From contig JAPLSA010000012.1 of assembly GCA_026398815.1 (NCBI GenBank), positions 1-64,000 of the forward strand: a DNA stretch of 64,000 nucleotides. Reading direction: 5' to 3'. The notes beneath the pieces are model-generated. The model saw nothing but the letters and a program-made list of their open reading frames with translations. It did not search any database and was not told the DNA's origin. Shown piece by piece: positions 16,464 through 24,808 of the stretch (position 1 is its first letter; each line of letters begins with the position of its first letter). The DNA is from Gammaproteobacteria bacterium (GTDB lineage: Bacteria; Pseudomonadota; Gammaproteobacteria; Nevskiales; Nevskiaceae). Position numbers and translations under genes: made by a program.

Positions 16464-16479
16464 AGCACGATCAGTGCCA
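16464..16479 (-). promoter_or_regulatory. sigma-54 (-24/-12) promoter of the PQQ alcohol dehydrogenase gene
   Basis: On the minus strand the sequence reads TGGCACTGATCGTGCT: GG and GC are exactly 10 bases apart, and -24 TGGCAC is a perfect match to the consensus TGGCACG-N4-TTGCW, with GTGCT at -12. The predicted transcription start near 16453 leaves a leader of about 60 bases before the ATG at 16394. Confidence 0.75.
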
Positions 16480-16783
16480 TCGTGGCAAGACGCGGATACC
16501 ACCAGTCCGACCTCCGATCCAGGCTTCCAACCAGGGCTGATCGCCGCGTCATTGCTTTGATATCACTCAAGAAAATAACCTCCCGCAAGATGCTGGCGCC
16601 GCGCTGGAAAATCGGCCTTGCAGCGGAACCGGCCCCAGCCTCCATCCTGCGATCCGGGCAATGTCACCAGCCGGGGACAGCCTCATCCGGCCTGTCTCGC
16701 GTCCGGGACGGTGCCCTTTGCGGGTCGAAAATGACACAGTTCGAGCGGCTTCCGCATCGCGGGCAAATCCCCCTTTCCCAGGC
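16480..16783. other. upstream activating region of the alcohol dehydrogenase gene
   Basis: About 300 bp without a gene between the alcohol dehydrogenase promoter and the porin terminator. It holds a TGTC-N10-GACA palindrome (16662-16679) and a TGACACA half site (16732-16738). Both resemble the TGTC-N8-GACACA elements found near exaC and pqqA but with different spacing, so the link is tentative. Confidence 0.4.
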
Positions 16784-16811
16784 AAAAAAAAACCGGGCAC
16801 GAGGCCCGGTA
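16784..16811 (-). terminator. Rho-independent terminator of the porin gene
   Basis: ACCGGGC (16793-16799) and GCCCGGT (16805-16811) form a stem with a 5-base loop; on the minus strand it is followed by at least nine T (16793-16785). It lies 38 bp after the porin stop. Confidence 0.85.
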
Positions 16812-16848
16812 ATTTGGCGCTAGGAGAGGTTCTTGGTCAGGCCGGCAC

Positions 16849-22571: not shown

Positions 22572-24623
22572 ATGAGGTGCGAGGAGATGGGCGATAACGC
22601 TGCGGTGCAGCACGCCAACGGCGTATTGCGCACGATCAATGGCGGCCTGGTCACCAAGGCCGGTTTCGACGAGGCGATCCGGGTTTCCTGGCAACGCTGC
22701 CTCAACGATTTCCGACTCGACCCGGCGCGCCTGCATGCGCCGAGCGTGATCGACTCCAACAATCTCAAGGATCTCCAGGAACGCCATGACGAACTGGTGG
22801 AGATCGCCCGAGCCGAGATCGACACGCTGTACGACCAGATCAGCGGCTCCGGCTATGCGCTGCTGCTGACCGATGCCAAGGGCATCATCCTGACCGACAA
22901 GGTCGATCCGACGCTCAACAAGATGTTCCGCAGTGCCGGCCTGCTGGTCGGCGCCGAATGGAGCGAGCAGAGCGAGGGCACCAACGGCATCGGCACCTGC
23001 ATCGCCGAAGGCCGGGCCATCACCGTTCATCGCAACGATCATTTCCGCGCCCGCCACATCGGTCTGTCGTGCTCCGGCGCGCCGATCCGCGACATGAACG
23101 GCGAACTGATCGCCGTGCTTGATGCCTCCTCGGTCGGCAGCCACGACACCCGGGCCAGCCAGATGCACACGATGGCGCTGGTCAACACCAGCGCGCGGAT
23201 GATCGAGAAGTGCCTGTTCCTGCGCCGCTGCCAGCCGTATCGCGTGCTGCGGTTCCACAGCCGGCCCGAGTTCGTCAACCTGCTGCACGACGCCGCGCTG
23301 GCACTGTCCGAGGACGGCCACATCGTGGCCGCCGACGACATGGCGGTATCGCTGCTGTCGGCCCCGAGCCGCGCCAGCCTGATCGGCCGGCCGGTGAGCG
23401 AGCTGTTCGACATCGGCGAAATGGAACTGGCGCAACTGGTCAACACGCGGATGGCGCTGATGCCGGTGCGTGACCAGCGCTACGGCCGCCGCTTCTTCGT
23501 GACGCTGTCCCCGCCGCAGCTAATGAGCCGCATCGATGCCCAGGTCGACCGCGTCCGCCGGCCGTCGAGCGAGCGCGTGCAGATCGTGCCGGCGCCGTCG
23601 GCGAATGCGCTGTCGCTGGCCGACCTCGCCGGCCAGGACCCGCAGATGCTGCAGAACATCCGGGCGGCACGGCGGCTGGCCGACACCCGGGTGCCGATCC
23701 TCATCCAGGGGCCGACCGGCTCCGGCAAGGAAGTGTTCGCCAAGGCCGTCCACCTGGCCAGCACGCGGGCGGCGCAGCCGTTCGTGGCGGTGAACTGCGC
23801 GGCGATTCCGGAAACGCTGATCGAATCCGAACTGTTCGGCTACAAGTCCGGCGCTTTCACCGGCGCCCGCAAGGAAGGCATGCGCGGCCGCATCCAGCAG
23901 TCCAGCGGCGGCACGCTGTTCCTCGATGAAATCGGCGACATGCCGCTGAACCTGCAGACCCGCCTGCTGCGAGTGCTGGAGGAACAGGAAGTGGTGCCAC
24001 TCGGCTGCGAGCAGGCGGTGAAGGTCGAACTCTGCGTGCTCAGCGCCTCGCACCGCGACCTGCGCCAGCTGATCGCCAACGGCGGCTTCCGCGAGGATCT
24101 CTACTACCGCCTGAACGGCATGACGCTGGAGCTGCCGGCGCTCAAGGACCGGGTTGACGCCGAGGCATTGATCCGCCGCTTCATCGCGCTCGAGGCGCGC
24201 CCCGGCGAAGCGATCTCGATCGAGGCCGATGCCTTCGACTGCCTGCTCGGCTACGACTGGCCGGGCAACATCCGCGAGCTGCGCAACGTCATCCGCACGG
24301 CGCTGGCGATCTGCGAGGACGGCGTGGTGCGCATCGCCGACCTGCCCCGCAGCTTCCAGGGCGCAAGGGCCAAGGCCTTGCCGGCGCCATCCCCGGCGGC
24401 GCTGCCGACACCGGAAACGCCGCTGGCGCCGGTAGCCGCCGGCGGCAATCCGCTGGAGGCGGCCGAGAAGGCGGCGATCCTACGCGCGGTGGAAGCCAAC
24501 CAGTGGAACATGACGCTGACCGCCCGCGATCTCGGCATGAGCCGCAACACGCTGTACCGCAAGCTCAAGCGTCACGCGATCCCGGTGGGCGATGCCCGCC
24601 GTGACGATTTGTCCCGTAACTGA
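22572..24623 (+). CDS. acoR: sigma-54-dependent transcriptional activator, AcoR-type
   Basis: A 683-residue enhancer-binding protein. The N-terminal GAF-type sensor region covers about 40-220, the AAA+ domain about 345-585 with Walker A GPTGSGKE (380-387) and the sigma-54 contact motif GAFTGA (427-432), and a Fis-type helix-turn-helix is at the C-terminus (TARDLGMSRNTLYRKLKRH). ATG 22572 is chosen because an upstream TTG (22479) falls inside the promoter; ATG 22587 is another option. AcoR-type proteins switch on alcohol, acetoin or aldehyde use. Location between exaC and pqqA, and the sigma-54 promoters around it, make it the likely regulator of this island. Confidence 0.85.
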   Translation: MRCEEMGDNAAVQHANGVLRTINGGLVTKAGFDEAIRVSWQRCLNDFRLDPARLHAPSVIDSNNLKDLQERHDELVEIARAEIDTLYDQISGSGYALLLTDAKGIILTDKVDPTLNKMFRSAGLLVGAEWSEQSEGTNGIGTCIAEGRAITVHRNDHFRARHIGLSCSGAPIRDMNGELIAVLDASSVGSHDTRASQMHTMALVNTSARMIEKCLFLRRCQPYRVLRFHSRPEFVNLLHDAALALSEDGHIVAADDMAVSLLSAPSRASLIGRPVSELFDIGEMELAQLVNTRMALMPVRDQRYGRRFFVTLSPPQLMSRIDAQVDRVRRPSSERVQIVPAPSANALSLADLAGQDPQMLQNIRAARRLADTRVPILIQGPTGSGKEVFAKAVHLASTRAAQPFVAVNCAAIPETLIESELFGYKSGAFTGARKEGMRGRIQQSSGGTLFLDEIGDMPLNLQTRLLRVLEEQEVVPLGCEQAVKVELCVLSASHRDLRQLIANGGFREDLYYRLNGMTLELPALKDRVDAEALIRRFIALEARPGEAISIEADAFDCLLGYDWPGNIRELRNVIRTALAICEDGVVRIADLPRSFQGARAKALPAPSPAALPTPETPLAPVAAGGNPLEAAEKAAILRAVEANQWNMTLTARDLGMSRNTLYRKLKRHAIPVGDARRDDLSRN

Positions 24624-24627
24624 CACA
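24610..24627. promoter_or_regulatory. TGTC-N8-GACACA palindrome upstream of pqqA
   Basis: TGTCCCGTAACTGACACA has the same half sites and spacing as the element at 22361-22378. It overlaps the stop codon (TGA, 24621-24623) of the activator gene and lies about 166 bp upstream of the pqqA sigma-54 promoter, a normal enhancer distance. It suggests that the activator also drives cofactor synthesis. Confidence 0.6.
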
Positions 24628-24792
24628 TCGCGCCAATATCGCCAGAGGTCGGCGCAGCCAGGATCTGTCGCATCGAGGGTTCGGGAAGGCTTGAGGCAGA
24701 CGGCAAAACTGCCGTTAAATCAGGCCGTGACAGCGACTTGCGGATTTTCAATCCCGACCATTGAAACAGACGATTGGGAACCGAATCCGAGG

Positions 24793-24808
24793 TGGCATAG
24801 TCTCTGCA
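24793..24808 (+). promoter_or_regulatory. sigma-54 (-24/-12) promoter of pqqA
   Basis: TGGCATAGTCTCTGCA has GG and GC exactly 10 bases apart, TGGCA at -24 and CTGCA at -12. The predicted start near 24819 gives a leader of about 57 bases before the pqqA ATG. Confidence 0.7.

Follow-up and report, generated by a model that had tools for sequence, protein, structure and literature searches.

A predicted sigma-54 regulon for alcohol oxidation that includes pqqA in a gammaproteobacterium of the Nevskiaceae

Genes and sigma-54-like elements of the island

The window, the whole 64,000-nucleotide stretch that we analysed, carries an island of alcohol-oxidation, regulatory and pqq genes, in addition to cytochrome genes near its start (Table 1). 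The alcohol dehydrogenase has the segment WDFDGVNE, the same as PedH (6zcw) in the alignment, compared to WDFSG in 1flg. An Asp is located two residues past the catalytic Asp, as in PedH/XoxF-type enzymes, and we take this Asp-x-Asp to indicate the lanthanide-dependent type. The porin-like protein has no NCBIfam or Pfam match. The activator consists of a GAF domain, a sigma-54 AAA+ domain in which the Walker A, GAFTGA and Walker B motifs were all found, and a Fis-type HTH. It matches 26 NCBIfam families and stays below the cut-off of all 25 that were shown; against the DhaR model it reaches 295.6 of 551 bits, short of the equivalog score, and it was therefore not filed as DhaR. The genome possesses two rpoN copies, with the RpoN boxes ARRTVAKYR and ARRTIAKYR.

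Table 1. Genes, sigma-54-like elements and dyads in the window
Feature	Position	Strand	Remarks
Dyad TGTCCC-N6-GTGACA, sixth promoter	2443..2460	.	
Sixth sigma-54-like element, CGGCACGCTTACTGCT	2545..2560	+	rank 7 in window; predicted +1 ~2571; ATG 2574
Small c-type cytochrome (CxxCH) and flavocytochrome c sulfide dehydrogenase-type flavoprotein	2574..4171	+	
PedH-like PQQ alcohol dehydrogenase	14607..16394	-	TIGR03075, 786 bits; lanthanide-type D-x-D
-24/-12 element, dehydrogenase, TGGCACTGATCGTGCT	16464..16479	-	predicted +1 ~16453
Dyad TGTCAC-N6-GGGACA, dehydrogenase promoter	16662..16679	.	
Porin-like outer-membrane protein	16849..18075	-	name from earlier sequence reading
-24/-12 element, porin-like gene, TGGCATGTCGATTGCT	18243..18258	-	predicted +1 ~18232
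Dyad, porin promoter	18370..18387	.	one degenerate half
HisKA_3 histidine kinase	18398..19843	-	
LuxR/NarL-type response regulator	19836..20462	-	
Aldehyde dehydrogenase (ALDH)	20611..22122	-	best model StyD, below its cut-off
Sigma-54-like element, ALDH, TGGCTTGCTTCTTGCC	22239..22254	-	weak by score; predicted +1 ~22228
Dyad (N4 form) between divergent ALDH and activator promoters	22360..22377	.	
-24/-12 element, activator gene, TGGCACTACTGTTGCT	22468..22483	+	predicted +1 ~22494
Activator (bEBP)	22572..24623	+	
Dyad (N4 form), pqqA	24610..24627	.	overlaps activator gene stop codon
Second dyad, pqqA	24715..24732	.	degenerate
-24/-12 element, pqqA (presumed operon pqqABCDE), TGGCATAGTCTCTGCA	24793..24808	+	predicted +1 ~24819
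pqqA	24876..24950	+	24 aa; TIGR02107
pqqB, pqqC, pqqD, pqqE	25107..28290	+	

The preliminary description listed five GG-N10-GC elements with TGGC in promoter positions; all five are present, each on the strand of the gene 3' of it. They share a TGGCAY...TTGCW-like context, which is weak in the ALDH element (TGGCTT...TTGCC). A sigma-54 matrix, with approximate frequencies rather than ones taken from a file, places them at ranks 1, 2, 3, 6 and 10 among 127,970 window positions (porin 1, activator 2, pqqA 3, ALDH 10), with ranks 4 and 5 (39535 and 48683) lying outside the island. Four matches in the window score at least 16, namely 39535 and three of the five elements; the Markov mean at this score is 0.25 and the maximum 1. 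At a score of at least 12, the ten matches are near the Markov mean of 7.55, so that the score by itself does not make the ALDH element significant. The exact pattern TGGC-N8-TGCW occurs 17 times in the window and is thus too common to be strong proof. The longer TGGCAY-N6-TGCW has 51 matches in the 4.30-Mb genome, compared to 27 for the reversed-pattern control, and four of the 51 fall inside the 8.3-kb island, where about 0.1 would be expected.

Conservation of the elements and the pqqA promoter across the class

Comparison of seven to eight same-genus loci revealed that 13 of the 16 element positions are invariant for the dehydrogenase, 13 for the porin, 12 for the activator and 15 for pqqA (eight loci), against 17-41% of the promoter region outside the elements. 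The ALDH element, weak by score, is rescued by 15 of 16 invariant positions in seven genus loci versus 23% elsewhere. No non-overlapping 16-nt stretch equals the invariant count of the dehydrogenase, ALDH or pqqA element and one ties with the porin element, while the activator element is out-conserved solely by stretches overlapping the divergent ALDH element. Among 80 named loci, 12 have PQQ-related genes at the thresholds used. A sigma-54 site precedes pqqA in 16/16 loci and the porin gene in 13/13, the window included in both counts, compared to 1/52 rows of control genes. The proposed place of the activator gene in its own regulon agrees with its high-ranking element and with a site in 8/8 of a set made up of the window and the seven loci closest to it, but only 10 of 31 activator rows, paralogues and fragments included, have such a site, indicating that autoregulation is lineage-specific.

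Sampled evenly across the class, pqqA has a sigma-54 site within 250 nt upstream in 26/38 cases, compared to 0/38 on the opposite strand. The site occurs in 3/27 of a further sample, in which Pseudomonas- and Bradyrhizobium-like types abound. By family, a strong -24/-12 promoter is predicted for pqqA in 16 of 28 sampled families that have the gene, and its distance from the start is almost always 43-119 nt.

These data bear on the explanation that the elements are chance GG-N10-GC matches and the genes use sigma-70-type promoters. The frequency of the short pattern and the chance-level score of the ALDH site would fit it, but it is contradicted by the matrix ranks, the promoter positions, the conservation, the control genes and the strand control at pqqA; we rejected it as highly improbable. 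The earlier judgement that five such matches are unlikely by chance is upheld by ranks, island enrichment and conservation, the ALDH element being carried by conservation rather than score.

An upstream dyad and a sixth promoter

By k-mer enrichment and half-site spacing, a dyad TGTCAC-N6(or N4)-GTGACA was found upstream of the elements. GTGACA/TGTCAC is the joint top 6-mer there, and its extension CTGTCAC the top 7-mer. A second half-site follows at a spacer of 6 in 19/68 cases and of 4 in 10/68, compared to 0 to 3 cases for other spacers; no dyad was prominent at the level of 5-mers. The dyads in Table 1 refer to a matrix idealised from the k-mer found in these same promoters. Half-sites are degenerate at the porin, ALDH/activator and pqqA dyads, and both spacers are represented. 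The first pqqA dyad shares positions with activator codons, so that coding constraint contributes to its conservation.

The strict form of the dyad has two copies in the 4.3-Mb genome, both within the window. The second of them led to a promoter absent from the earlier list of five, upstream of the cytochrome and flavocytochrome genes, which had not been used in finding the dyad. In flavocytochrome orthologues, the best dyad lies 100-103 nt 5' of a conserved element at 9/9 genus loci, with a degenerate form in one of them (L195). In genome G006, the homologue L200 (41-43% identical) lacks both the dyad and the element. As read from the DNA, the predicted regulon is larger than five promoters, with this one as the sixth. 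At the six f6 loci, sigma-54 sites were found for both pqqA and pqqB but TGTCAC was not, so that another activator must be at work in these loci. The dyad offers a handle for regulon reconstruction and for building inducible promoters.

A proposed common activator and its known counterparts

The elements and their conservation, the dyads, the genes and rpoN are directly legible in the sequence, and with the GAFTGA activator they all fit the sigma-54 alcohol-oxidation regulon including pqqA that the preliminary description put forward. We consider it very likely that one GAF-domain activator and sigma-54 govern a regulon for periplasmic alcohol oxidation with six promoters and TGTCAC-type dyads. 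RNA polymerase with sigma-54 would be held closed at the six -24/-12 promoters, which serve the alcohol dehydrogenase, the porin, the aldehyde dehydrogenase, the activator, pqqA (presumed operon pqqABCDE) and the cytochrome c/flavocytochrome operon. The activator probably binds the dyads, some 80-200 bp upstream. Its GAF domain would sense a signal, probably an alcohol, an aldehyde or a metabolite, leading to oligomerization, and ATP hydrolysis by the activator would then open the promoters. In this lineage the activator would also feed back on its own gene. Because one activator would open all six promoters, we propose that enzyme, PQQ, uptake and electron transfer rise together.

The histidine kinase and the LuxR-type regulator, encoded between the ALDH and porin genes, would fit a different division of labour: sigma-54 would still be needed at the promoters, with the LuxR-type regulator binding the dyad as the main specificity factor and the GAFTGA protein playing an accessory part or acting on other genes. 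A precedent for such a dyad binder is EraR at exaA of Azospirillum brasilense, and other dyad-bearing genomes do have a close homologue of the response regulator (G024 57%, G035 60%, G039 47%). Good dyads nevertheless occur where no close homologue exists (best 41% in G027, 37% in G018 and 35% in G001), sigma-54 needs an AAA+ motor, which LuxR-type proteins do not have, and the activator gene lies beside pqqBC even in loci with a separate pqqA-pqqE operon. We thus regard this division as unlikely.

Slightly less likely still is that a paralogous activator (C5 or C23, 41-43% identical) shares control at these sigma-54 promoters or truly activates part of the regulon. Genome G016 (same genus, 91% complete) would fit this, as it keeps the flavocytochrome dyad and element and has a paralogue, with no activator orthologue (best 43%). 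However, the paralogous dehydrogenase beside the C5 activator, 40% identical to the dehydrogenase of the window, is preceded at -82 by a palindrome of its own, ATTGTGCA..TGCACAAT, which is unlike TGTCAC and conserved in G016.

PQQ supply and PQQ enzymes are usually pictured, from Pseudomonas, under LuxR-type or two-component regulators. A sigma-54 switch has a low basal leak and requires an ATP-driven activator, so that enzyme and cofactor would be tightly co-produced. We think it likely that PQQ synthesis is sigma-54-dependent over much of the Gammaproteobacteria (in the GTDB sense, including Burkholderiales), with Pseudomonas- and Bradyrhizobium-like lineages mostly without the site, and that here one activator couples pqqA to a lanthanide-type alcohol dehydrogenase. 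The arrangement had been called unusual; it does differ from that of Pseudomonas, but looks common class-wide. We propose that it has stayed hidden because the studied lineages are the ones mostly without the site. The class-wide signal yields a prediction for many species: an rpoN mutant would make little or no PQQ.

Among the matches listed, no report of sigma-54 control of pqqA appears in open-licence PMC titles, abstract openings or passages. No such claim occurs in passages of PMC12826043 and PMC3480352, nor in passages of PMC12403871, PMC13390443, PMC3639832, PMC9851590, PMC6115532, PMC5874634 and PMC12997753, and 'pqq' occurs 0 times in the main text of a sigma-54 regulon survey (PMC12316311).

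Several known systems share parts of this architecture. AcoR/DhaR-type bEBP systems have an activator with the same GAF, GAFTGA-bearing AAA+ and Fis HTH domains, whereas the predicted targets here are PQQ enzyme and cofactor genes. Similar to the island, A. brasilense has a PQQ alcohol dehydrogenase gene, exaA, with a -24/-12 promoter and a dyad upstream of it, reportedly of 17 bp. Its activator is LuxR-type, presumably without GAFTGA, whereas the gene of an AAA+ GAFTGA activator lies in the island here, and here the cofactor operon has its own predicted sigma-54 promoter. In strain Sp7, exaA is described as sigma-54-dependent with the LuxR-type EraR (Singh et al. 2017, via passages of PMC6115532 and PMC12826043). 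In passages on A. brasilense, expression of pqqA:lacZ requires the ECF factor RpoE6, and these contain no sigma-54 claim for pqqA. The ped/exa systems of Pseudomonas (PedE/PedH, PedS2R2, AgmR) likewise have a PedH-like enzyme, a kinase/LuxR regulator and a pqq operon co-regulated with the cluster, the control of pqq being attributed to AgmR in passages of PMC12997753; unlike the window, Pseudomonas-type pqqA is mostly without a sigma-54 site in our samples.

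Sigma-54 elements of the island and their conservation

The preliminary description had read five GG-N10-GC elements as the promoters of one sigma-54 regulon of alcohol oxidation that includes pqqA. All five are present where described and in the correct orientation. Scored by an approximate sigma-54 matrix, they take ranks 1, 2, 3, 6 and 10 among 127,970 positions; ranks 4 and 5 go to two sigma-54-like sites elsewhere in the window (39535-39550, 16.1; 48683-48698, 15.0). Four window matches score at least 16, against a mean of 0.25 in Markov sequence, and 10 score at least 12, against 7.55, so that the aldehyde dehydrogenase (ALDH) element is unconvincing by score alone. 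In the whole genome (4.30 Mb, with the window as its contig C18), TGGCAY-N6-TGCW occurs 51 times against 27 in the control, and four of the 51 lie in the island.

Features of the island and of the remaining window
Feature	Coordinates	Strand	Remark
Element, PQQ alcohol dehydrogenase	16464-16479		
Element, porin	18243-18258		
Element, ALDH	22239-22254		
Element, activator	22468-22483		
Element, pqqA	24793-24808		
Sixth promoter, dyad	2443-2460		before small cytochrome c and flavocytochrome-type flavoprotein
Sixth promoter, element	2545-2560		same operon
Dyads upstream of elements	2443, 16662, 18370, 24715, 24610, 22360		24610 and 22360 are N4 forms
Activator	22572-24623	+	GAF, AAA+ with GAFTGA, Fis HTH
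Activator, pqqABCDE		+	plus-strand genes
ALDH, LuxR-type response regulator, histidine kinase, porin-like protein, PQQ alcohol dehydrogenase		-	minus-strand genes
"Quinoprotein relay" set	9614-14009	-	downstream of the dehydrogenase; solute-binding protein, SoxYZ-like carrier, SoxH-like hydrolase, second PQQ protein (below NCBIfam cut-off)
Further sites	39535-39550, 48683-48698	-	scores 16.1 and 15.0

Conservation of the upstream sites, together with two rpoN genes in the genome itself (contigs C28 and C23; open frames, each with an RpoN box), upholds the sigma-54 reading with pqqA included. Relatives were retrieved via the activator (60 plus the own genome), and the window, 25 fetched stretches (23 from relatives, the other two being paralogue regions within the own genome) and two named loci were scored over 500 nt upstream plus 30, rows shorter than 100 nt being skipped. 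A site scoring at least 12 precedes pqqA in 16/16 rows, the porin in 13/13, a separately transcribed pqqB in 6/6 and the dehydrogenase in 16/17, six of these 17 being paralogues of 36-42% identity. For ALDH the count is 10/18, and for the activator 10/31, where the 31 take in paralogues and fragments. Among the control genes, no such site was found before the kinase (0/15), the solute-binding protein (0/10) or SoxYZ (0/12), and the response regulator had one in 1/15 rows, namely at locus L154, where it adjoins the activator. Nor does one stand ahead of the first gene of the "quinoprotein relay" set.

Across seven to eight genus loci, the 16-bp elements keep 15 invariant positions at ALDH and pqqA, 13 at the dehydrogenase and porin and 12 at the activator, against a background invariance of 17-41% outside them. 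No non-overlapping 16-nt stretch equals the element at the dehydrogenase, ALDH or pqqA; one ties with it at the porin, and at the activator its count is reached only by stretches overlapping the divergent ALDH element.

The island dehydrogenase carries a WDFDGVNE motif, which contains the Asp-x-Asp of lanthanide enzymes. PedH (6zcw), its nearest match, shares this motif, where the calcium-type 1flg has WDFSG.

The upstream dyad and a predicted sixth promoter

Upstream of 79 promoters, GTGACA is a joint-top enriched 6-mer and CTGTCAC the top 7-mer. The spacer to the second half-site is 6 in 19/68 and 4 in 10/68 cases, other spacers occurring 0 to 3 times. Among the ten highest-scoring N6 dyads in the window, six are placed ahead of sigma-54 elements, a count that is partly circular because the motif was derived from these promoters, the dyad at 2443 excepted. 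The strict form TGTCMC-N6-GKGACA has two genome copies, both inside the window (control 0), and is present in 8 of 18 genus genomes. Allowing one mismatch raises the genome count to 10, compared with 4 for the control. The dyad is a probable enhancer site.

The predicted sixth promoter is an independent success of the dyad, since it was not used in deriving it, and the predicted regulon is larger than five promoters. Orthologues (at least 71% identity) occur in 9 of the 18 genus genomes, the own included. In all nine loci the best dyad lies 100-103 nt ahead of the element and the ATG 10-13 nt past it (both distances as read off); element scores range from 9.9 to 13.3, and the dyad is degenerate in one locus (L195). 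A more distant flavocytochrome homologue (L200) has neither dyad nor element. The predicted sigma-54 start (region 2545-2574) falls 0-3 nt before the cytochrome c ATG, making these transcripts candidates for near leaderless ones.

Candidate proteins at the dyad

The GAFTGA activator is the putative binder. When the genus genomes were divided by an activator orthologue at 51% identity or more, the 11 with one held 12 strict dyads (control 1), five of the 11 having none, and the seven without held three (control 2), two in G016 and one in G003. Against the activator as binder, G016 (contig C1) lacks the orthologue, yet its flavocytochrome operon retains dyad and element. Also counter to it, in six loci of f6, a family of order relatives, pqqA and pqqB lack TGTCAC, whereas the ALDH adjoining the activator has it. 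As to the response regulator, the best matches in genomes G027, G018 and G001 reach 41%, 37% and 35%, and the loci of these genomes have good dyads (L152, 20.5; L155, 17.4; L153, 17.5); homologues of 47-60% are present in G024, G035 and G039.

The f6 loci L157-L162 have pqqBC in one operon and pqqA-E in another, with a -24/-12 site for each, and another activator-like gene was seen in L157-L159 only. The own genome also holds paralogous cassettes on contigs C5 (L166) and C23 (L167), with an activator (41-43% identical) beside another PQQ dehydrogenase (36-40%). The C5 cassette has its own sigma-54 sites, and its dehydrogenase promoter carries a different palindrome at -82, kept in G016.

Predicted pqqA promoters across the class

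According to work cited in PMC6115532, expression of A. brasilense exaA depends on sigma-54 together with a LuxR-type regulator, and in PMC12997753 and PMC3480352 Pseudomonas pqq control is ascribed to AgmR. Among the matches listed from the open-licence literature, none described sigma-54 control of pqqA. Sigma-54 regulons are already known; new are PQQ synthesis inside a predicted one and the same putative pqqA promoter in many families.

In an even draw from the class, pqqA was detected in 39/274 genomes, and 38, with one pqqA each, were scored (L265 was left out, its pqqA not being located). Within 250 nt upstream, a site of at least 12 occurs in 26/38 and of at least 14 in 20/38, compared with 0/38 on the opposite strand, 0/38 downstream, and 71 and 45 of 1800 random stretches of 30 class loci, among which the true site may fall. 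The 20 strong sites span 16 of 28 families (our count from the sample's labels), and 19 lie 43-119 nt before the ATG. The wider surroundings of class pqqA genes were covered by 14 stretches, five of which show an activator-like gene.

In a phylum sample, pqqA was detected in 65/398 genomes. Of the best 30 of these 65 loci, three had already been scored (all at least 12); the 27 new ones have a site of at least 12 in only three and of at least 14 in two (opposite strand 0/27, downstream 1/27). Judged by their PqqA peptides, most of these 27 are Pseudomonas-like or Bradyrhizobium-like. Among named records, the site precedes pqqA by 60-63 nt, with an activator homologue alongside, in Variovorax sp. 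WS11 (score 15.7) and in two Paraburkholderia (12.0 each); in Stutzerimonas (L079) the sole site, of score 12.3, is as far off as 249 nt. At two loci, L254 and L255, one sigma-54 site stands ahead of tandem duplicate pqqA genes.
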